DNA from: Thermohalobaculum xanthum
GTDB taxonomy: Bacteria > Pseudomonadota > Alphaproteobacteria > Rhodobacterales > Rhodobacteraceae
DNA: 64,000 bases
Assembly: GCF_016623495.1 (NCBI RefSeq)
Contig: NZ_JAEHHL010000001.1
Location: forward strand, 992,001-1,056,000
Reading direction: 5' to 3'
The notes under the pieces: model-generated
What the model saw: the letters and a program-made list of their open reading frames with translations, nothing else
The model's database searches: none
What the model was told of the DNA's origin: nothing
Shown here: positions 1 through 28,309 of the stretch, piece after piece
Layout of the letters: every line of letters begins with the position of its first letter
Numbering within the stretch: the first letter of the stretch is position 1
Position numbers and translations under genes: made by a program

Positions 1-942
1 CAGGATGAAGCGGTCCATACGCGTGAAGTAGGGCACTCTTGGTAATAGATTGGCAGTTGCGAAGAGATAGGCGACAAGCGTCAGAAAAGCTGTGGCAGCG
101 ATGCCAATCCTGGCTCCTGTTTCTGAACTGGGGATCCAGAGCGGCGCCCATGACATTGCAACGATGAGGCAGAGCGGGACGATCAGTTTGAACACGTAAT
201 ATTGGGGCGTTCGCTGAGTGAATATCTCCATTATAAATCCAGCCGTTCCCGCCTCACCCTTGAAAGCAAGGAATTCGCGTGGCTCGACCTTCCAGTCCAG
301 CACCTCGAAATCGGGTAACGAAAAGGTTTCGCTGATCGCGGATTGACGCCCATGCGCTTCTACGAGAGCCACGAGGGCCACCTCGGTTCGCAGTAATCCT
401 GCGGCAACCACATGGATCTGGAGTGTCTGACGATCGAACGGGAAATCTCGCAGGTCAAGGGGCTGGGAGAACCAGGCCCAGACCTTCTGCCGCATGGTCA
501 CTGTGCCATCCGGCTCCACCTCCGCATAGGGTGGGAAAGCGGACCATCCCTGCTGCTGATTGACGATCGCAAGACGAGGTGTCCAAACGGAGGTGGCAGG
601 CATGATTTTCGGCCCGGGGCCCGAATGCTTCAGACTGTGGTCAGTCCACCTGGCAACAAGGAAAACACTCGCCGAGAAGCGCTGGTTCGCGGAGTCGATC
701 GCGTCAACGTCGATCACGTAAGTCCTCAGCTGGACTTCGGTGGGTTCGCCCCAGGTGGTCGGGCGTTCGATGGTCGTGTGATCCGCGGCGGGCGTCGGCT
801 CTTCGGAAATGGGGGCCGTGCCGGGGGTCTGTGCAGGCACCGATAATATTGGACAGCAAACTGCCGCGAGCATCAGGAAGGCAATGTAAAGAACTCCCGG
901 GTGTCGATTACGAGTGCGGCTCATCATGTGCCCCGAGGCCAT
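1..942 (-). CDS. Pentameric ligand-gated ion channel homologue (partial, C-terminus cut by window edge)
   Basis: Translating the minus strand gives 314 open codons reaching the window edge. Residues about 15-37 form a signal peptide ending near PAQ. An extracellular beta-sandwich follows (VDAIDSANQRFSASVFL near 79-95, RWTD at 98-101, VWTPRL at 119-124, LDLRDFPFDRQTLQI at 162-176). FPFDRQ is the hallmark of the loop that carries the disulfide in animal Cys-loop receptors; the cysteines are absent here, as is usual in bacterial members such as GLIC and ELIC. TM1 lies near 249-269, TM2 near 277-298, and TM3 begins at the edge. The family forms homopentameric cation or anion channels in the inner membrane with the ligand site in the periplasm. 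I chose the ATG at 942 because a GAGGGA lies upstream; ATGs at 927 and 924 are in frame. The family call is firm, ligand and ion selectivity are unknown. Confidence 0.88.
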   Translation of the reverse strand, partial: MASGHMMSRTRNRHPGVLYIAFLMLAAVCCPILSVPAQTPGTAPISEEPTPAADHTTIERPTTWGEPTEVQLRTYVIDVDAIDSANQRFSASVFLVARWTDHSLKHSGPGPKIMPATSVWTPRLAIVNQQQGWSAFPPYAEVEPDGTVTMRQKVWAWFSQPLDLRDFPFDRQTLQIHVVAAGLLRTEVALVALVEAHGRQSAISETFSLPDFEVLDWKVEPREFLAFKGEAGTAGFIMEIFTQRTPQYYVFKLIVPLCLIVAMSWAPLWIPSSETGARIGIAATAFLTLVAYLFATANLLPRVPYFTRMDRFIL

Positions 943-17594: not shown

Positions 17595-17695
17595 AGGCGT
17601 CAGCGTACTGTCAAAATGCACTTCAAGGAACAAGGCCGACTTGACCGCCCATGTACCTTTCCTCTCCGATGGCGGCTAAGGGAGCACGACAGTCC

Positions 17696-19939
17696 ATGCT
17701 TTTTGCACATTCATCTGAACGGCGCGATCGTACGGACTGGGAGCCCCTGAAAGATCACCTCTTGGCGGTTGCCGCTCGGGCGGGAGAGTATTCCGCGCAA
17801 TTCGACGCCAGGGCATGGGGCGAAACCGCTGGCCTGCTCCACGACCTCGGCAAGGCCAAGCCCGCCTTTCAGGCCAAGTTGAGGGGCGAGGCCAACTCCG
17901 AGCCCCATAGCGGAGAGGGCGCGCGTTACGCGGAGGAGCACCTTCCAGGCCTCGTCGGAAAACTGCTCGCTTTCTGCATTGCAGGGCACCATTCGGGGTT
18001 GCCGAACGGCGCAACACACTCCGAGGGTCGCCCGCCAACACCGCTCCGCGAGCGGACGCGAACTGCAGAGCTCATACAGCTCCCCGAAGGTATCGTGCTG
18101 CCGACCGTGGTGGGTCATATCCCGCGACCACTCAGTGTCGTCCCGGCGAATGCATCGGAACGCTCGTTTGCATTCCAATTCTTCGCGCGAATGATTTTCT
18201 CCGCGCTTGTCGATGCCGATTATATCGAGACAGAGCGGTTTTATGACGAGCTTGGTGGTCGCGCCTCCAGGCGTAGCCAAGGACCGTCGGTAGCCGTTCT
18301 GTCCGAAGCTCTGGAGGAGCGTCTGTCACGCTTTGGCAATCCCAGCGGAACGGTAAACAAGCTTCGCGACGAGATCAGATCTCACGTTCGGAGCCAGGCC
18401 GCAGCCGCCCCCGGGCTCTTCTCGCTCACGGTTCCAACCGGCGGAGGGAAGACTCTCGCATCGCTCGCGTTTGCGCTCGATCACGCCAAGCGGCACGGTC
18501 TTCAGCGGGTGATTTACGTGATCCCCTACACTTCCATCGTCGAACAGACCGCAGACGTCTTTCGCGATGCGCTCAAGGACAATGAAGCCGTTCTGGAGCA
18601 CCATTCGGCGTTCGACTGGGATGGGCTCGACGATCCAGCCGAGTCCGAACGTATGAAGCTCGCGGCGCAGAACTGGGATCGCCCGGTAATCGTGACAACC
18701 GCAGTCCAGTTTTTCGAGAGCCTCTACTCCAATCGCACCTCCAAATGCCGAAAGCTTCATCGGCTTGCGAATGCCGTCATGATCCTTGATGAAGCGCAGA
18801 CGCTACCACTCCGCTTGCTCCGTCCATGTCTCGCAGCACTCCGGGAACTCGCGCGCGGCTACAACTCGAGCATCGTCCTTTGCACGGCAACTCAACCGGC
18901 TCTCTTTCGGGAAGATGGTTTCCCACACCCTGAAGGTTTCGCACGCGCCGATGTTCGCGAGCTCGCGCCCCAGCCCGCACAACTTTACGAGGCGTTGCGC
19001 CGCGTCCGTGTCGTCAACTGTGGCCCCCTTTCAGACGATGAACTGCTGGCACGCCTTGCCGCGAAGGCCAGCGGCCTCGTAATCGTCAACAACCGCCGCC
19101 ATGCGAGACAGCTCTTCGAACGTATACGCGACCACGACGGCGCCTCTCATTTGACCACCAGCATGACGCCAGAACACCGGCGGAGTGTTCTGCGCGAGGT
19201 ACGCACAAGGCTAGCTCAAGACCTTCCGGTGCACCTGATTGCGACCTCCCTGATTGAGGCCGGCGTCGACGTCGACTTTCCCGTGGTCTACCGGGCAGTC
19301 GCCGGGATCGACTCCGTCGCTCAGGCAGCAGGACGTTGCAATCGAGAAGGACGCATGGCCGAACGAGGCGAGGTGTTTGTCTTTCGGCCCAGTGGAGAGC
19401 ATCGGCCACCGCCCGATCTGAAACAGTTTGCCGATATCGGTGCCGAGATTCTCTCTCGCCACGCTGATCCTCTCTCGCTCGACGCGGTTCGCGACTATTT
19501 CCGGCTTCTCTACTGGGACCGGGCGCATGATCTGGACGCGGAGATGGTCGGATCTGTGAGGGGGATTATTCCGGCAATCGAGCGATCGGGCGGCCAAATG
19601 GACTTCCCGTTTGCGGACATAGCCTCTGCATTTCGAATTATCGCCGATGGTGCGCTGCCGATCGTCATTCGCGGGGGAGCCTTTGGCGTACCCGATGCAA
19701 CACTGGAGCGACTGCAGACCCACCCGCATCCCGGCACCATCGCGCGTCAGCTCCAGCCCTATCAGATCCAGTTGCCCCAAAGAGTGCGTGGACGGTTCGT
19801 TGCGGCTGGGGCGGCTGAGTTCTGGCGAGAGGACGAGTTCGGCCCGCAATTCTTGCTGTTAGCGAATGTTGACCTCTACGATGACCGTGCTGGGCTGCGC
19901 TGGGATGATATTGAAGACTTTGGCTTGCAGGAATTGTGA
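17696..19939 (+). CDS. cas3: CRISPR-associated nuclease-helicase Cas3 (type I-C)
   Basis: A 747-residue protein. The N-terminal HD nuclease domain has GLLHDLGK (His49, Asp50) and GHHSG. The SF2 helicase has Walker A VPTGGGKT (246-253), the DExx box ILDEAQT (Asp365), VNNRRHA, TSLIEAGVDVDF and AQAAGRCNREG (motif VI). It unwinds and degrades target DNA recruited by the Cascade complex. I prefer the ATG at 17696, because AAGGGAG precedes it and FAHS near the N-terminus is typical of the family; ATGs at 17651 and 17672 are in frame. It leads the operon cas3-cas5c-cas8c-cas7, 6 bp before cas5c. Confidence 0.95.
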   Translation: MLFAHSSERRDRTDWEPLKDHLLAVAARAGEYSAQFDARAWGETAGLLHDLGKAKPAFQAKLRGEANSEPHSGEGARYAEEHLPGLVGKLLAFCIAGHHSGLPNGATHSEGRPPTPLRERTRTAELIQLPEGIVLPTVVGHIPRPLSVVPANASERSFAFQFFARMIFSALVDADYIETERFYDELGGRASRRSQGPSVAVLSEALEERLSRFGNPSGTVNKLRDEIRSHVRSQAAAAPGLFSLTVPTGGGKTLASLAFALDHAKRHGLQRVIYVIPYTSIVEQTADVFRDALKDNEAVLEHHSAFDWDGLDDPAESERMKLAAQNWDRPVIVTTAVQFFESLYSNRTSKCRKLHRLANAVMILDEAQTLPLRLLRPCLAALRELARGYNSSIVLCTATQPALFREDGFPHPEGFARADVRELAPQPAQLYEALRRVRVVNCGPLSDDELLARLAAKASGLVIVNNRRHARQLFERIRDHDGASHLTTSMTPEHRRSVLREVRTRLAQDLPVHLIATSLIEAGVDVDFPVVYRAVAGIDSVAQAAGRCNREGRMAERGEVFVFRPSGEHRPPPDLKQFADIGAEILSRHADPLSLDAVRDYFRLLYWDRAHDLDAEMVGSVRGIIPAIERSGGQMDFPFADIASAFRIIADGALPIVIRGGAFGVPDATLERLQTHPHPGTIARQLQPYQIQLPQRVRGRFVAAGAAEFWREDEFGPQFLLLANVDLYDDRAGLRWDDIEDFGLQEL

Positions 19940-19945
19940 GGGGAT

Positions 19946-20614
19946 ATGGGGTTCGGGATTAAACTTCTCGTTTGGGGTGATTATGCCTGCTTTACGCGCC
20001 CGGAGATGAAGGTGGAACGCGTGAGCTACGACGTGATCACACCTTCAGCAGCGCGGGGAATCCTCGAAGCGATCCACTGGAAGCCAGCGATCAGATGGGT
20101 CGTCGACAGCATCCATGTGCTCGCCCCCATCCGGTTCGAAAACATCCGCCGCAACGAGGTGGGATCGAAGATCTCCGCCGTTAATGTGAAGCGAGCGATG
20201 AATGCCGGAAACCTCGACGGGGTCGGCCACGCAATCGACGAAGATCGCCAGCAACGCGCGACGCTCGCGCTGAGGAACGTCCTGTACGGGATCGAGGCAC
20301 ATTTTGAGATAACCCCGAAAGCTGGGCCCGATGATAACGACACCAAGCACATCGAGATGTTCAGACGTAGGGCGGCGAGCGGGCAGTGCTTTCATCGGCC
20401 ATGTCTGGGCGTGAGAGAGTTCCCCGCCCATTTCGACCTTGTTGATGAGTTTCCCGAGAGCAGCCTGCCGCAAGACGAACGCAACCGGGATCTTGGATGG
20501 ATGCTCTACGACATAGATTACGAAAACGGTCGTGAGCCCCTCTTCTTTCGGGCCGTTATGCAGGACGGGGTAATTGACCTCGGTCGCGCCCGCAAGGAGG
20601 GGATGGCACAGTGA
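19946..20614 (+). CDS. cas5c: CRISPR-associated protein Cas5c (Cas5d), crRNA-processing subunit
   Basis: A 222-residue RAMP-type protein starting with [19 protein letters not shown] and [19 protein letters not shown], characteristic of Cas5 of type I-C. In this subtype Cas6 is absent and Cas5c cuts the precursor crRNA in the repeat, then stays on the 5' handle. [13 protein letters not shown] and [22 protein letters not shown] are family features. It overlaps cas8c by four bases (GTGA), indicating coupling. All core parts appear intact. Confidence 0.93.
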
Positions 20615-22422
20615 CGATCCTGACCGCACTGGCATCCCTCTACGACCGGCTTGCGGATGCCGGCGAAGCCCCGCGACCACGATATTCCGTCGAGAAGATT
20701 GGCGCCGAAGTCGTGCTCGACGAGGAGGGCAATGTTATCCGTATTGCTCCAAAACTGGTGACAGAAGGAACACGGAGGATCGCCGCATCCCTCTCTGTAC
20801 CAGCAGCCGTAAAGCGGACAGCAGGCATTAAGCCAAACCGTCTATGGGACAAGACGGCTTACGTGCTTGGTATCACGGCAAAAAAGGATGAGGGCGGCAA
20901 ACCAATCACCGACGATGAAGGACGCATGGTCCCCGGACAGGAAAAGCGCACCGCTGCGGAACACGAAGCATTCAAGCTGCTTCATCAAGACCTCCTCGCG
21001 GATGCGACTGACCCCGGCCTAATCGCTATGCGCCGCTTCCTCGAGACATGGCATCCGAGCGACTTCGCCGCACGGGGCTTCCCGGAGGAGGCACTCGACC
21101 AGAACATCGTCTTTCGGCTCGACGGTGACACGGATGCCAGCGGCGTCCCCCTCTATGTCCACGAGCGCCCCGCCGCCGTCGAATTGATCTCCGCGGAGGA
21201 GCCCTGTGGGAACCAGTCGCTTTGCCTCGTCACGGGTGAGCGCGCATCGATCGCAAGGCTGCACCCATCGATCAAAGGCGTTCTCGGCGCACAGAGTTCC
21301 GGGGCGTCGATCGTGTCGTTTAATCTTAACGCCTTCGAATCTTATGGAAAAACGCAGGGGGAGAACGCTCCCGTATCGGAGCGCGCGGCATATGCATACA
21401 CGACCGCCCTCAATGCTCTTCTGGCGCGCGACTCGGGACGGAACGTTCGTATCGGAGATGCGACCGTCGTCTTCTGGGCAGAAACCCAAAACCCAAAAGC
21501 TGCCGCTACCATAGAAGATCTGCTCTTCGGCGCCCTCCAGCCGGAGGACGATGACGCTGCAAACCTCAAGATCCGTGCCGCGCTCGAGGCCGTTGCAAAG
21601 GGGCAGGCCACGGACGGCCCTGAGCTTGACCCCCAGACCCGTGTCTACATTCTCGGCCTCGCGCCCAACGCTTCCCGGCTCTCGATCCGCTTCTGGAACC
21701 CGGGCACCTTCGGAGACTTCGCCCGCCAGATCATGCGCTTCTGGCAGGATCTCGAGTTGGACCCTGCTCCATGGAAAGGGCCACCAGCGGCCTGGTCGCT
21801 CCTTTACGAGACTGCAATCCAGCGCAAGGCAGAGAACATTTCCCCCCTCCTCGGTGGTGAGCTGATGCGCGCGGTTCTGACAGGAGCGCCCTATCCGCGG
21901 CCACTGCTTTCAAGTGTCGTCGGCCGGATCAGAGCGGATGGCGAAATTAATGGCCGCAGAGCTGCGATCTGCAGGGCATTCGTCAACAGAAACATTGGAC
22001 AGGAGGTGATCCCAGTGGGCCTCGATCCCGACAACCCCAACCCGGCCTATCGGCTGGGACGGCTCTTTGCCGTTCTCGAGAGTATCCAGAGAAGGGCTCT
22101 TCCCGGCCTCAATGCGACGATCAAGGATCGGTACTTCGCGGCTGCGTCGTCGACGCCGGCGCGCGTGTTCCCCGTCCTCGTGAAGAACGCCACCCACCAT
22201 TTGGCCGTCATGCGAAAGGGCGATGGAGGCGGCCTTGCTCACTGGCTGGATTCCCAGATGGGTGAGATCTGGGCGGGGCTCGAAGCTGATTTGCCGCGCT
22301 CTCTTAACCTCGAGGACCAGGGACGCTTCGTTGCCGGTTACTACCACCAGAGGTGGGCTCGAAAGAAGGCCGACGAGACTGAGGGCGCAGAGGAACTGAT
22401 CGACGCTGGGAGCGAAGAATGA
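20611..22422 (+). CDS. cas8c: CRISPR-associated protein Cas8c (Csd1), large Cascade subunit
   Basis: A 603-residue protein in the place and size range of Cas8c. [20 protein letters not shown] at the N-terminus and FYILGLAPN-like [18 protein letters not shown] in the middle are typical of Csd1. It recognises the PAM and opens target DNA in the type I-C complex, and in this subtype an internal start inside the gene often makes the small subunit Cas11c; I did not pick such a start with confidence. The initiation codon is GTG at 20611, overlapping the cas5c stop, and its stop overlaps the cas7 ATG. Confidence 0.93.
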
Positions 22423-23321
22423 CCGCGATTTCGAACCGCTATGACTTTGTCTTTTTCTTTGATGTCGAGAACGGCAACCCGAACGGCGACCCCGATGCGG
22501 GCAACTTGCCGCGGATGGACCCGGAGACAAACCAGGGCCTCGTTTCGGATGTAAGCCTCAAGCGGAAGATCCGCGACTACGTAGCCGCTTCGAAGGCGGG
22601 CGAGCCGGGCTACGAGATCTACATGGCCGAGCGCGCGGTTCTCAATCGCCAGCACGCGCGTGCTTATGAGGCAACCAAGATCAAACAGGAAGCGAAGAAG
22701 CTCCCAAAGAAGGAGCAGGAGGCGCGCGAGCTCACCGACTGGATGTGCAAGAACTTCTTCGACATCCGTACGTTTGGCGCCGTCATGACAACGGAGGTGA
22801 ATTGCGGCCAGGTGCGCGGCCCGGTGCAGCTGTCATTCGCCCGCTCGCAAGAGCCGATCATGCCGCTTGAGGTCTCCATCACACGATCCTCAGTGACTAA
22901 CGAAAAGGACATCGAGAAAGAGCGCACAATGGGTCGAAAGCACATCGTGCCCTATGGGCTCTACTGTGCGCACGGCTTCATCAACGCGAAGCTCGCGGAG
23001 AAATCTGGCTTCTCGGAAGATGATCTCGAATTGCTCTGGAATGCGTTTCGGGACATGTACGACCTCGATCGGTCTGCGGCGCGCGGAATGATGGCGGGAC
23101 GTCGCCTGATTGCTTTCAAGCACGACTCGGCGCTCGGCAATGCTCAGGCGCACAAGCTCTTTGATCGAGTAACGGTGAGCCGCCTGAATGGCGGCGATGC
23201 GCTCCCGGTCGGCGACCCGCGCACGCACAACTGGCCACCAGCGCGCGCGTTTTCGGACTATCGAATTGGCGTCGACACATCCGGTCTCCCTGACGGGATT
23301 TGCGTCATAGAGCCGTTCTGA
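22419..23321 (+). CDS. cas7: CRISPR-associated protein Cas7 (Csd2), Cascade backbone
   Basis: A 300-residue protein opening FVFFFDVENGNPNGDPDAG, the hallmark of Cas7/Csd2 of type I-C. DIRTFGAVM and GPVQLSFARSQEP are family segments. Multiple copies coat the crRNA spacer. The ATG overlaps the cas8c stop (ATGA). In a complete type I-C operon cas4, cas1 and cas2 would follow; here a small unrelated gene follows 41 bp later. Confidence 0.95.
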   Translation: MTAISNRYDFVFFFDVENGNPNGDPDAGNLPRMDPETNQGLVSDVSLKRKIRDYVAASKAGEPGYEIYMAERAVLNRQHARAYEATKIKQEAKKLPKKEQEARELTDWMCKNFFDIRTFGAVMTTEVNCGQVRGPVQLSFARSQEPIMPLEVSITRSSVTNEKDIEKERTMGRKHIVPYGLYCAHGFINAKLAEKSGFSEDDLELLWNAFRDMYDLDRSAARGMMAGRRLIAFKHDSALGNAQAHKLFDRVTVSRLNGGDALPVGDPRTHNWPPARAFSDYRIGVDTSGLPDGICVIEPF

Positions 23322-23362: not shown

Positions 23363-23716
23363 ATGTATACAATTGAAGACCTCAAGGCCGCGCGCGATGA
23401 GCTGCGGCAATGGGAAGAAAGATCCGATCGCTACGATGGCAACAATCCAGACAAGTACCGAAGCGATATTCGTCTTGCCCGAAGCAAAGTGCGTTTGATC
23501 GAAGGGCACTTGAAGAGGGCTGGCCAAATCGCATTGACGGAAAAGGAGGCGCTGGAACAGGCGCTTGATCATGCCTTTCCCAATGCAATGAGCAAAGAGG
23601 TCGTCGAGTTCGAAGGACGCCGTTATCAGCGCAGATTCTGGCCTCTTGAAAAAAGCCGCTCACGCAAGACGGTCACCGAATGGGGCAGTGACTGGGTTGA
23701 GCTACCCAAAAAATAG
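23363..23716 (+). CDS. Small protein between cas7 and the array, unknown function
   Basis: A 117-residue cytoplasmic protein, mostly helical and charged, with no cysteine. Features are YTIEDLKAARDELRQWEE (helix 1), RSDIRLARSKVRLIEGHLKR (helix 2), then VEFEGRRYQRRFWPLEKS and TVTEWGSDWVEL, which look like a small beta unit rich in aromatic and basic residues. The AGAGGAAGA just before 23363 is a good ribosome site. It is collinear with the cas operon, 41 bp after cas7 and 74 bp before the array, in the slot where cas4-cas1-cas2 normally lie. It resembles none of them. It could be a Cas accessory, a regulator or anti-CRISPR, or a passenger gene. Confidence 0.7.
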   Translation: MYTIEDLKAARDELRQWEERSDRYDGNNPDKYRSDIRLARSKVRLIEGHLKRAGQIALTEKEALEQALDHAFPNAMSKEVVEFEGRRYQRRFWPLEKSRSRKTVTEWGSDWVELPKK

Positions 23717-23790
23717 CGTTCGGCGCTGGGTCCAGATTTTGGTGCGTGGACATAAACATCAACGAAAGCGCCGGTATCCCGACTCACACG

Positions 23791-24089
23791 CTCGCCCCCC
23801 GTGCGAGGGCGTGGATTGAAACTTCTCGTAGGCTTGCTTGGTAAAGTTGAACTGGCGTCGCCCCCGTGCGGGGGCGTGGATTGAAACTACGGCATGGACG
23901 CGGCGGGCGAAAAGCCGAGCGAGTCGCCCCCCGTGCGGGGGCGTGGATTGAAACATTGATCCAGATCCGCCACGGCGCGTCATCGGACGGTCGCCCCCCG
24001 TGCGGGGGGCGTGGATTGAAACAAGTTTCAGGACCATGAAAATACGGAGGTTCTGCGATCGCCCCTCGTGCCGGGGCGTGGATTGAAAC
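23791..24089 (+). CRISPR. Type I-C CRISPR array, 5 repeats and 4 spacers
   Basis: Repeats lie at 23791-23822, 23857-23887, 23923-23954, 23990-24022 and 24058-24089 (31-33 nt). They contain a GCCCCC/GGGGGC hairpin around GTGC and end GTGGATTGAAAC, the type I-C repeat. Spacers are 23823-23856 (34 nt), 23888-23922, 23955-23989 and 24023-24057 (35 nt each). The repeat orientation matches the cas genes, so one transcript can run from the cas side. The first repeat has C at position 1 and an A in the stem; the fifth begins with A and has two changes in the stem; the internal ones differ in C or G run length. Only about 74 bases separate the array from the upstream gene, a short leader. Confidence 0.97.
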
Positions 24090-24134: not shown

Positions 24135-25157
24135 TCAAGCTTTCGACAGGGATTTGAGCAATTCGGCCTGCCGCTCTCGAGACACCGGGAGGTAGGATTC
24201 CATGGTCGTTGCGAGATTTTCGTGACCCATGTTCATCGAATACGCCTTAAACTGCTCGCGCGTCTGGCAAATCCGGTCGCCATAAAGCACCAAGGTCTTC
24301 CGGAAGGAGTGCGGCGTAAATTGCGGCAGGTGCACCCGCGCGAAGGCCGCCCGGATCACGGAGGTCAGCTTGCCCGTGCCCTCGTAATGCTCCCGTGCCA
24401 GCCCGTCCTTCGCGAACTTGCCGGATCGTAGAGCCATCCGAGGCTTCGGAAAGAGCGGGTCAGTATCACTGAAGAGCTCCACCTCGCGCAGGTAGATCAC
24501 CCAGCGCTCAAAGTACTCCCGGTATGACGGGTCGACCGGCAGGAACCATGTGTCGAAGGTCTTTGCGTTCTTCGTCGCCACCTCGCGGGCGTCCTGGAAG
24601 ACGTGGCCGTCGAACAGGTTGACATGCTTCAACCGCAAGCTCGCGACGGCACCGACGCGGGCACCGGTCAGCATGAAGAATGCAAAGAGTGCCTTATCAC
24701 GCCGCTCGAACACGTCCACTTCGGGCATGCCATGGAAGGCATGGAGACACTGCTCCATCGATGGATACGGGGTCGCTCGCCGTGCGTGAGCGGCTCGAGA
24801 TGCCTTCAGAGAGTTGTTGAAGTAATCGGCATCGCTGTAGCCAACCCTCGACTTGTATCCCGGCTGGTCGGCCAGCCAGAGCACGAATGCCTTCACCTGC
24901 GCGAGGGTCGCATCGACCGTCGACTGGCTGAGAGGTCTCCCGGTTCTCTTGCTGCGGGCCTTTTTCAGATGCGTCTTGAACCGCTCGCCCCATTCCCGGC
25001 GGAATCGCTTGAAGTCCTTCCAGCCGATGGCGGCCTCGAACTGGCTGAGCGCCGCCGCGACCTTGTCGAGGGTCTTCTCGTCGCGACCCTTCGCCTGCTT
25101 CAGGTGGTAGAGGTAGCGGTGCTTGATATGCTCGTTTTCGGGGATGACTTTCACCAT
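24135..25157 (-). CDS. Tyrosine recombinase/integrase
   Basis: A 340-residue protein. The N-terminal half is a helical SAM-like core-binding domain. The catalytic domain shows Arg in LTGARVGAVASLRLKHV, HSFR in TPHSFRKTLVL, His in NMGHENLATTMESY and the nucleophile Tyr in that last segment. It should cut and rejoin DNA at specific sites. The stop codon lies only about 45 bases from the last CRISPR repeat. It is the last gene of a minus-strand block with two HTH proteins, probably a mobile-element module, and may be an integrase or resolvase distinct from the tRNA-linked one at 26864. Confidence 0.88.
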   Translation of the reverse strand: MVKVIPENEHIKHRYLYHLKQAKGRDEKTLDKVAAALSQFEAAIGWKDFKRFRREWGERFKTHLKKARSKRTGRPLSQSTVDATLAQVKAFVLWLADQPGYKSRVGYSDADYFNNSLKASRAAHARRATPYPSMEQCLHAFHGMPEVDVFERRDKALFAFFMLTGARVGAVASLRLKHVNLFDGHVFQDAREVATKNAKTFDTWFLPVDPSYREYFERWVIYLREVELFSDTDPLFPKPRMALRSGKFAKDGLAREHYEGTGKLTSVIRAAFARVHLPQFTPHSFRKTLVLYGDRICQTREQFKAYSMNMGHENLATTMESYLPVSRERQAELLKSLSKA

Positions 25158-25208
25158 CTTCAGCCTCCTGCTCGAAGTGTTGTTTTGAACCGGGTCGCAG
25201 AGGTTCGC

Positions 25209-25634
25209 TTAGTCGTAGCCACGCCTGTTGATGGCGAACTCGAACCTCGTGGCCCATTCGGTAAGGTTGCGATCGCTCACGATCCGTTGGGCGGTCCGTT
25301 CACAATGCGGGCAGATCATGATTATGCGACTTCGCCCTCCTTCCATCGGCTCGTGATCGACCAGTCCCGGCATTGGGGCGCGGGGGCGCTTGCAGCAGAG
25401 ACAGAAGATCTCGAAGGCCCCTAAAGCTTGCTTGCTGGCCTTGAGGCGCGACGCGTGGAACTCCTTGAAGTCCCGGCCTCGGATCAGGAAGGGGCGCTTG
25501 TCGGTGATGCAGGGAAGGCCCTGCCTGCGCCAGTTCCTGACTGTTTGAACCGTCACCCCGACAATCTCGGCGAGCTGATCGATCCTGTAGGCCCGGTGCG
25601 TTTTCACGCGGCGCGCGTCGATGCGCCGGCGCAT
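25209..25634 (-). CDS. HTH protein with a C-terminal cysteine cluster
   Basis: A 141-residue protein. Residues about 16-60 form a MerR/excisionase-like helix-turn-helix (YRIDQLAEIVGVTVQTVRNW, then FLIRGRDFKEFHA). The rest contains FCLCCKRP and ICPHCERT, a four-cysteine arrangement that likely binds one zinc ion. It probably binds DNA at the element, as recombination directionality factor or repressor. Its ATG overlaps the stop of the gene before it (TGATG), so they are coupled, and the recombinase gene follows 51 bases later. Confidence 0.7.
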   Translation of the reverse strand: MRRRIDARRVKTHRAYRIDQLAEIVGVTVQTVRNWRRQGLPCITDKRPFLIRGRDFKEFHASRLKASKQALGAFEIFCLCCKRPRAPMPGLVDHEPMEGGRSRIIMICPHCERTAQRIVSDRNLTEWATRFEFAINRRGYD

Positions 25635-25846
25635 CAGAGTGCGCCGTCATCGTTCGGATCTACGCGGCGCGCGTCGGCCCACGCGTTCAGATCCGCGCCG
25701 CGGTAGATGATCTTTCGGCCCAGCTTGTAATAGGCGGGGCCGACACCCTTGTGGCGCCACTGTGTGAGTTTGTCCCGGTCGCCGAGCAGGTCGAGGTCCG
25801 GGTCGCCGGGCAGATAGTTGCGGTCGTGCTCGAAGAGTTTCGCCAT
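25634..25846 (-). CDS. AlpA/excisionase-like small HTH protein
   Basis: A 70-residue protein with the usual winged HTH_17 signature: DRDKLTQWRHKGVGPAYYKL and KIIYRGADLNAWADARR. Such proteins act as excisionases or as activators of integrase genes. The ATG at 25846 follows GGAGGCC; a frame open from 25867 adds seven unlike residues. It is translationally coupled to the cysteine-cluster HTH gene and lies 87 bases after the unknown 284-residue gene. Confidence 0.75.
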   Translation of the reverse strand: MAKLFEHDRNYLPGDPDLDLLGDRDKLTQWRHKGVGPAYYKLGRKIIYRGADLNAWADARRVDPNDDGAL

Positions 25847-25933
25847 GATCTGGCCTCCTTGGTTCATCTTGGAGGCGTTGGACCACGCTTGAGCAGGTCG
25901 GTAAAAATGCGGCTTCGGAGCGTTGGAAAGCCC

Positions 25934-26788
25934 TTACTCTGACTGCCTTCTTCGATCGTTCATCAATGCCAGGCACTCCTCGAGAGCGTTCCGCTGACGC
26001 GGCACGCCGTACCCACGGAGCCCCTCGAAAGCGTCTCCCGAAGGCTCCATGTCCGTTTCGGTCAGTTGGCCCAGCGCCCACTCCGCAGGCCCGCGCGTAT
26101 GAGACTTGATCCCCAGGATCGTGAAGGCCTTCGCAAGGGCCCGCGCGAACTGGGTCGATCCGCTGCCGTCATGGGGCGATGTGCCCCAGGTCGGGAACTG
26201 GCCTGTCTCTTGCGCAAACAGCCGGGCAAGTCTGAGAGCGATCTCGCGCGCGTAGTAGTCCGGGGCGCGGTGCTTCAGGTTCCAGAAGCGCTCTTCCTGT
26301 TCGTTGAGTTCGCGGAGCCGGTCCCCGATAACGCTTTGAAGATCAAGACACATATAAAGGAACACATGGCTCCCGCCCACCTCAGCAATGTTCTTCCTCA
26401 CGAGGGACGTCGGGCTATCCGCGAATATGCGGCGCGCCTGATCTCGCAGCTTCTGATCGATGCGCGGGTGCAAGGCGTCGAACATTTCCCGCCCGGCTTC
26501 GTCTTCCTCCGAAGGCAACAGCGTGGAGAACACCGCGTCGAGGTGCTCCAGCGTCTCCTTGCACGCATCCCGCTCGCGAATGAACTGCGCCTTGGTGTCG
26601 TGCTGGTTCGGCTTCGATGTGTCGAATGGCGGGGAGTTTCCCAGGAGGGTCGATGCTCTGGGGGATTGCTTGCCATAGGGTGAGAGCATCTCGTCCACGA
26701 CGGCATGGAGCTGTTCGGCAACCGAGAGGTCCTGGTTTTCTGCGTCATTTTTTTGCATGAAGGCAGCTTGAGGCATGCCTTCCTGCAT
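25934..26788 (-). CDS. Unknown protein of the mobile-element block
   Basis: A 284-residue soluble protein, mostly helical, acidic in its first half, with no signal peptide. Recognisable stretches include FIRERDACKETLEHLDAVF, GGSHVFLYMCLDLQSVIGDR and HRAPDYYAREIALRLARLF, and near the end HTRGPAEWALGQLT. I do not recognise the family. Its position between two recombinases, with HTH proteins downstream, makes it likely cargo or a helper of the integrated element. The first in-frame ATG is used; ATGs four and ten codons later are possible. Confidence 0.6.
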   Translation of the reverse strand: MQEGMPQAAFMQKNDAENQDLSVAEQLHAVVDEMLSPYGKQSPRASTLLGNSPPFDTSKPNQHDTKAQFIRERDACKETLEHLDAVFSTLLPSEEDEAGREMFDALHPRIDQKLRDQARRIFADSPTSLVRKNIAEVGGSHVFLYMCLDLQSVIGDRLRELNEQEERFWNLKHRAPDYYAREIALRLARLFAQETGQFPTWGTSPHDGSGSTQFARALAKAFTILGIKSHTRGPAEWALGQLTETDMEPSGDAFEGLRGYGVPRQRNALEECLALMNDRRRQSE

Positions 26789-26863
26789 TACAAGAGATCG
26801 TTCTGGCTTTGTTTCAGTGTGCGACCCTTTGCGGGAATCCTCTACTAAAAGGACCTTCCCGCA

Positions 26864-28072
26864 TTACTTTCGCGGAACTTTCTTGAGTTCGACCACGTTC
26901 CCGAGGTTGCCGGTCACGTAATTCGACCAGCTCTCCATGAGCTTGCGCCGCCTTTCGAGGAGATCCGAGCGTGCATAGGCCTGCTCAACCACCGACCCGA
27001 TTCGGTGTGACAGGCTCATCTCGGCGACTTCCCGCGGCGCTCCCGCCACCTCTGCGGCCCAGTCCCGGAAGGTCGAGCGAAAGCCGTGCACCGTCACGTC
27101 GTCGGCCGACATGCGCCGGAGCAACATCAGCATCGCCATGTTCGAGAGCGGCCGGTGCCGCCGTTGCCCTTCGAACACGTACTCCGATCGCATCGAGTGC
27201 AGCGGCTCGATGATCGCGCGCATGGCGTCCGTCAGGGGCACGCGGTGCTCCACCCCCGCCTTCATGCGATCCGCTGGGCAAGACCACACGCGCTCTTCGA
27301 AGTTCAGCTCTTCCCACCTCATCCCGAGGACCTCGTTGGTCCGGCTTCCGGTGAGGCAGGTGAACATCAGCGCCTTCGCCGCCATCGCGTTGCGCCCCGC
27401 GAGGTTGGCATAGAAAGCCGGCACGTCGCGCCAGTGCATCGCCTTGTGGTGTGCGCGCTTCTTCCTGACCGGCGGCAGGACCTTGGCCTCCCGGATTGCG
27501 GTCACGGGGTTCTCGCCCTCTCGAAAGCCCTTGGACCGGGCGACGTCCAGGACCGTCTTGATCCGCTGCGCGACGCGACGCGCGGTCTCATGCTTGTCGG
27601 TCCAGATCGGTGACAGGCACATGAGGACTTCTGGTTGGCCGACGCTGTCGACGGGCATGCGCCCGATCTTTGGGAAAGCGTAATCGCGCAGGGTGTTGAT
27701 CCACTGCTGGCCATGCTTGGCGTTCTTCCACGTCGGCAGGCGTTCGATGTGCACCTGTTCCGCAACCTCGGCAAATGTCGGTACGGCTTGCCGCGCGTTG
27801 TACCGCGGGTTCAGGCCTTGCCGCGCCATCCGGCGGTATTCGAGAGCACGCTCACGGGCCTGCGCCAGGCTCACGACATCCGCGCCTCCAAGCCCGAAAT
27901 CGGTGCGAAGCGGCGCACCCTTCCTATTCCTTTGTCCCTTGACGGTCACGCGGACGATCCAGCGACGGGAGCCAGAGGGATCGACAACGAGATAGAGCCC
28001 GCCCCCGTCGCCATGCCTGCCGGGACCAAGGTTCTCGACCAGTCGCTTTGTCAATTTCCCGGTAAGCGCCAC
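26864..28072 (-). CDS. P4-type tyrosine integrase next to tRNA-Ser
   Basis: A 402-residue integrase. The N-terminal domain (about 1-95) has the DUF4102/Arm-binding pattern, LTKRLVENLGPGRHGDGGGL and SRRWIVRVTVKG. The catalytic domain shows Arg in TGSRTNEVLGMRW, HGFR in VHGFRSTFRDW, His in MSLSHRIGSVVEQAY and the nucleophile Tyr in AYARSD. It integrates islands at the 3' end of tRNA genes. The start I prefer is the GTG at 28072, since the family usually begins MALT; an ATG at 28171 is open but adds 33 hydrophobic residues not typical of it. It runs away from the tRNA-Ser gene 150 bases upstream. Confidence 0.9.
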   Translation of the reverse strand: MALTGKLTKRLVENLGPGRHGDGGGLYLVVDPSGSRRWIVRVTVKGQRNRKGAPLRTDFGLGGADVVSLAQARERALEYRRMARQGLNPRYNARQAVPTFAEVAEQVHIERLPTWKNAKHGQQWINTLRDYAFPKIGRMPVDSVGQPEVLMCLSPIWTDKHETARRVAQRIKTVLDVARSKGFREGENPVTAIREAKVLPPVRKKRAHHKAMHWRDVPAFYANLAGRNAMAAKALMFTCLTGSRTNEVLGMRWEELNFEERVWSCPADRMKAGVEHRVPLTDAMRAIIEPLHSMRSEYVFEGQRRHRPLSNMAMLMLLRRMSADDVTVHGFRSTFRDWAAEVAGAPREVAEMSLSHRIGSVVEQAYARSDLLERRRKLMESWSNYVTGNLGNVVELKKVPRK

Positions 28073-28221
28073 GGAGTCATACCACCATTCATACCACGCA
28101 ACGAGCAGAATGCGAGGTAAGCGAACAAAATTCAAGATGGCGAAGTGAGGTGATAAATTCAGAAAAATCATGCCGTTTGAAGAATGAAAGGCATCTCACA
28201 AAACTGAAGGGCATTTGGTGG

Positions 28222-28309
28222 TGGCGGAAGGGGTGGGATTCGAACCCACGGAACCTCGCGGTTCAACGGTTTTCAAGACCGCCGCAATCGACCACTCTGC
28301 CACCCTTCC
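28222..28309 (-). tRNA. tRNA-Ser(UGA)
   Basis: Reading the minus strand from 28309, the acceptor stem GGAAGGG pairs with CCCTTCC, followed by discriminator G and encoded CCA at 28222-28224. The anticodon loop is CTTGAAA with anticodon TGA. There is a long variable arm as in class II tRNAs, and the T arm contains GGTTCGAATCC. The 88-nt length fits. The 3' end faces the P4-type integrase, so the 3' part of the gene is the likely att site. Confidence 0.97.

Follow-up and report, generated by a model that had tools for sequence, protein, structure and literature searches.

A rare small-protein family of mobile, defence-rich regions occupies the adaptation slot of a type I-C CRISPR locus in Thermohalobaculum xanthum

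The window, a stretch of 64,000 nt from Thermohalobaculum xanthum, contains a type I-C CRISPR locus in which cas3, cas5c, cas8c and cas7c are all present in this order, each of them full length and with a strong match to its model (Table 1). On the same strand, 41 nt past the cas7c stop codon, begins an open reading frame of 117 codons (ORF117), and the CRISPR array follows. The ATG of ORF117 is preceded by AGAGGAAGA, a good ribosome site. The original prediction had described a real gene collinear with the cas operon, and our analysis agrees: the E-values of tblastn matches to homologues go down to 8e-36, which is beyond chance, and the frame looks expressed. A longer version starting at a TTG codon at position 23300 (138 aa) was discarded because the homologues begin at the position of the ATG and are of equal length. 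The encoded protein has a pI of 9.2 and is only mildly positive in charge.

Table 1. Features of the locus and of the ORF117 protein. Nucleotide positions refer to the window; residue numbers refer to the ORF117 protein.
Feature	Position	Strand	Remarks
cas3	17651..19939	+	HD domain and helicase; full length; strong Cas3 model match
cas5c	19946..20614	+	full length; strong Cas5c model match
cas8c	20611..22422	+	full length; strong Cas8c model match
cas7c	22419..23321	+	full length; strong Cas7c model match
ORF117	23363..23716	+	117-aa protein; 117 codons, ATG start
Helical hairpin of ORF117	residues 4-22 and 33-53		YDGNNPDK loop; AlphaFold model
Alpha-beta-beta-beta domain of ORF117	helix 60-71; strands 80-83, 86-97, 104-114		AlphaFold model
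Degenerate CRISPR repeat R0	23726..23757	+	repeat-profile scan; 65 nt (exactly one repeat-spacer unit) before R1
CRISPR array	23791..24089	+	five repeats, four spacers; only array of its repeat in the genome
Tyrosine recombinase	24135..25157	-	faces the array
Integrase	26864..28171	-	adjoins tRNA-Ser; probable island integrase
tRNA-Ser(TGA)	28222..28309	-	right border of the lower-GC island

For comparison we searched for Cas8c (PF09709) in the relatives and across the class and read the flanking DNA, which gave 14 other I-C loci of the class readable past cas7. In 13 of these, cas4-cas1-cas2 follow directly after cas7, and ORF117 stands at the corresponding place, as had been proposed. This slot of the window contains no match to Cas4, Cas1 or Cas2 in tblastn at E < 0.1, no Pfam match above the cut-off and no convincing remnant of adaptation genes; cas1 was not found anywhere in the genome, and the locus is without an adaptation module. 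The fourteenth readable locus (L045) has lost cas4-cas1-cas2 as well, and here too another gene follows cas7: a large gene downstream of it (L045:4262-8506) encodes a protein of 1251 residues with weak Cap4-nuclease and STAND matches. The Cas3-like_C_2 model PF22590 exceeded its cut-off in all 14 control genomes when whole genomes were scanned; it is not specific for Cas3 and therefore unusable for judging the absence of CRISPR in genomes with homologues.

The five repeats of the array all differ in sequence and also vary in length (31 to 33 nt). A scan with the profile of these repeats identified the further, degenerate repeat R0, which, with the five true repeats included in the ranking, comes seventh out of 127,964 positions. 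R0 begins 9 nt past the stop codon of ORF117 and leaves no space for a leader; ORF117 therefore replaces the leader as well as cas4-cas1-cas2; the distance from cas2 to the first repeat is about 200 to 230 nt in two related I-C loci. The original prediction had placed the gene just ahead of the array. Nothing indeed intervenes, but it is R0 that adjoins ORF117, and the place of the leader is taken too. Other arrays of this repeat were not found elsewhere in the genome, and the four spacers had no convincing target in the phage and plasmid collections. The interference operon is intact, the adaptation genes are missing and the leader end of the array is decayed. Between cas7 and the array there is no terminator-like site on the plus strand, and no promoter-like site was detected upstream of the array. 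From this arrangement we infer that the cas transcript would include ORF117 as its fifth cistron, behind cas7, and that, with the leader gone, the array would be fixed and would depend for its transcription on read-through across ORF117.

The I-C locus probably is carried on an integrative island at the tRNA-Ser gene. The GC content is about 0.60 to 0.63 to the left of this gene versus about 0.70 to its right. A second copy of the tRNA end, which would mark the left border of the island, was not found in the window, and a genome-wide search for exact matches did not find one either. The region from the array to tRNA-Ser (24135-28171) encodes two tyrosine recombinases, two small HTH proteins and one protein of 284 residues without a Pfam or PADLOC match.

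Homologues of ORF117 are rare and scattered. We found 11 homologous loci, full or partial, on plasmids, proviruses and genomic islands (the window is excluded and two Burkholderia plasmids are counted as one). Five of 72,556 plasmids carry a homologue, among them plasmids of Shinella, Sinorhizobium (pSymA) and Burkholderia, as opposed to none of 50,697 phages; IMG/VR viral contigs contributed four loci, and relatives of Cas8c were not found in viral contigs. Among 61 relatives only the genome of the window itself has the gene. One extra genome with a homologue was found in 385 genomes of the class and two extra ones in 397 genomes of the phylum, and among 369 genomes of the class to which G501 belongs, this one alone is positive. 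Across 84,980 genome species, a peptide-pattern search, which reaches close relatives only, hit just one record, from Hydrogenophaga, in which the homologue lies in an island-like region. A weak hit (L074) was discarded since it falls in an unrelated protein.

The protein had been described as one without a match to any Cas family, and this description held: neither the protein nor the family alignment nor the C-terminal domain scored above the cut-off in searches of Pfam, PHROGs, NCBIfam, PADLOC and PDB. A match to Snx8 BAR was rejected as coiled-coil noise. The AlphaFold model (mean pLDDT 89.7) consists of a helical hairpin and a C-terminal alpha-beta-beta-beta domain (Table 1). Foldseek found no significant match to a known fold, with nothing below E 0.19 in the PDB; the best viral model, A0A516MNX1 (E 6e-3, probability 1.0, 62 columns), is a protein without a name. 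In the alignment, YxGNNPxK is kept between the two helices of the first half, and FPNA, VxxxGxxYxxxxxP, SxSGxxV and two tryptophans are kept in the second half. The two halves are separate modules, as three loci indicate. L023:7977-8162, on a viral contig that also encodes a T7-like RNA polymerase, comprises the N-terminal domain alone (61 residues); in L010:3959-4513 the C-terminal domain is duplicated; and L011:8219-8446, flanked by an integrase and an Abi_2 gene, has lost the C-terminal domain. The genome of L011 has an I-C locus of its own on another contig. Judged from the architecture, the hairpin would dimerise or dock on a partner, and the basic, tryptophan-rich C-terminal domain would bind nucleic acid; the latter mechanism is a tentative suggestion, drawn from the model, and somewhat doubtful, since Foldseek gave no significant match and the charge is only mildly positive.

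For the closest pair of homologues, from Shinella and Sinorhizobium, dN/dS is 0.12, and the window ORF117 and the Shinella homologue (L003) gave about 0.20; most other pairs were saturated. The pair compared at measurable divergence is under purifying selection, a further sign that the gene is real. This bears on the idea that ORF117 is a functionless passenger. The loss of adaptation and leader and the divergence of the repeats are what one would expect of a decaying locus, but the frame is intact, the invariant residues are kept and the dN/dS value against L003 is low, which makes such a passenger a poor explanation. What emerges is a real, conserved family of modular build that is rare, previously unnamed and independent of CRISPR.

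The last point follows from the genes around the homologues. The original prediction had suggested that ORF117 could be a new accessory or regulator, or else an anti-CRISPR, and had stated that homologues occurring mainly away from CRISPR loci would speak against this. Not one of the 11 homologous loci has cas genes beside it, none of the 14 other readable I-C loci of the class carries ORF117, and, G069 apart, the three cellular genomes that carry a homologue all lack cas1. These counts make a dedicated I-C accessory unlikely. The protein could in principle serve the I-C effector after adaptation was lost, and its collinear position 41 nt past cas7c, directly ahead of the array, would suit a regulator that took over at this stage; against the same counts, we give this version very little credence. 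What stood of the proposal is a non-Cas protein in the adaptation slot, and this protein may have a general role in defence islands.

The genes that adjoin the homologues are of varied kinds. On pSymA (L004) these are Gabija GajA and GajB (PADLOC E 2e-222 and 6e-135), in a provirus (L008) an AAA_13 protein of PDC-S06, a candidate defence gene, in L003 and L011 Abi_2 proteins with 43% mutual identity, in L024 an MNT nucleotidyltransferase (PDC-S09), in L001 HipAB and in L025 a 2OG oxygenase. Integrases or genes without assignment surround the homologue in L005, L010 and L023, and in L009 it lies at a contig end in a replication module. Two of 19 other genes from several of these neighbourhoods had PADLOC matches, both generic, in a comparison that is small and not randomly drawn. 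Counting the window, 7 of 12 loci have a tyrosine integrase no more than 6 kb away. The family is thus placed in mobile, defence-rich regions, on mobile elements near integrases and defence genes as defence-island cargo would be, although the sample is small.

Several functions can be considered for a protein in such surroundings. Since the neighbours are mostly defence or toxin-antitoxin genes and the distribution is sparse and horizontally spread, ORF117 might itself be a small stand-alone defence gene that clusters with others; no catalytic motif or toxin fold was recognised and a PADLOC match is absent, and we regard this as rather unlikely. An anti-CRISPR, or another anti-defence protein by which a mobile element tames the local defence systems, would agree with the small size, the occurrence on plasmids and proviruses and the several adjoining defence systems. 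However, these systems are unrelated and offer no common target, ORF117 lies inside the very operon it would inhibit, an HTH (Aca-like) partner was not recognised beside it in the window, and neither sequence nor fold matched solved structures in a search that covered the anti-CRISPRs of solved structure; this part of the original prediction is accordingly improbable. A role as recombination accessory or directionality factor of the mobile elements is suggested by the adjoining tyrosine integrases, at 36 nt upstream in L010, directly abutting the lone N-terminal domain in L023 and at 258 nt in L011, and by the presence of such an integrase within 6 kb in seven of the 12 loci. The integrases differ in type, however, both gene orders occur, no tyrosine integrase was recognised in the fetched stretches of L001, L003, L024 and L025, and the element in the window already has HTH excisionase-like genes, so that we hold an integrase partner to be quite improbable. 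That ORF117 is the first member to be recognised of a family of shared modulators on mobile elements, two-domain proteins that would associate with systems as unrelated as I-C CRISPR, Gabija, Abi_2, AAA_13 and MNT and tune or protect them, also has a rather small probability; if it were true, a single small protein would connect several immune systems that have nothing else in common.

The explanation that we favour, and which is probably but by no means certainly correct, is that ORF117 is cargo of a mobile element or defence island and has taken over the place that adaptation genes and leader would have in the I-C locus. This cargo would have landed in a decaying, adaptation-less locus, and ORF117 would be a small accessory protein that acts for its mobile element or the defence island on it, with no special tie to the I-C complex. 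Three points weigh against the cargo explanation. The tidy placement (same strand, 41 nt, array next) leaves room for an acquired role in the cas operon of this lineage. The defence neighbourhood is drawn from some dozen loci, and defence genes abound on mobile elements in any case. The left border of the island, finally, was not located. If the cargo reading is true, ORF117 represents another unnamed family that marks defence islands, and the locus is a clear case of an I-C system frozen by the loss of its adaptation genes and leader.

Compared with the type I-C arrangement cas3-cas5c-cas8c-cas7c-cas4-cas1-cas2-leader-array, the locus has the full interference operon in standard order and a repeat of 32 nt ending in GTGGATTGAAAC, but it has neither cas4-cas1-cas2 nor a leader, with ORF117 in their place, and its repeats have diverged. 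The Tn7-associated mini I-F systems (PMC6360697) are an example of CRISPR loci that lack adaptation genes and reside on mobile elements. Like these, the locus of the window is located on a mobile element and is without cas1 and cas2; in contrast to them it keeps cas3 and has an extra, unrelated gene, and its surroundings, as far as the genes there were read, showed neither tniQ nor Tn7 genes. With anti-CRISPR proteins ORF117 shares the small size and the location on mobile elements, whereas it has no match to the solved proteins and lies beside several unrelated defence systems. Cargo genes of defence islands and prophage hotspots have been described for the P2/P4 hotspots (PMC9122126). The ORF117 family resembles this cargo in its proximity to integrases, its varied defence neighbours and its patchy distribution, and is distinguished from it by being covered by no Pfam, NCBIfam, PHROG or PADLOC family.
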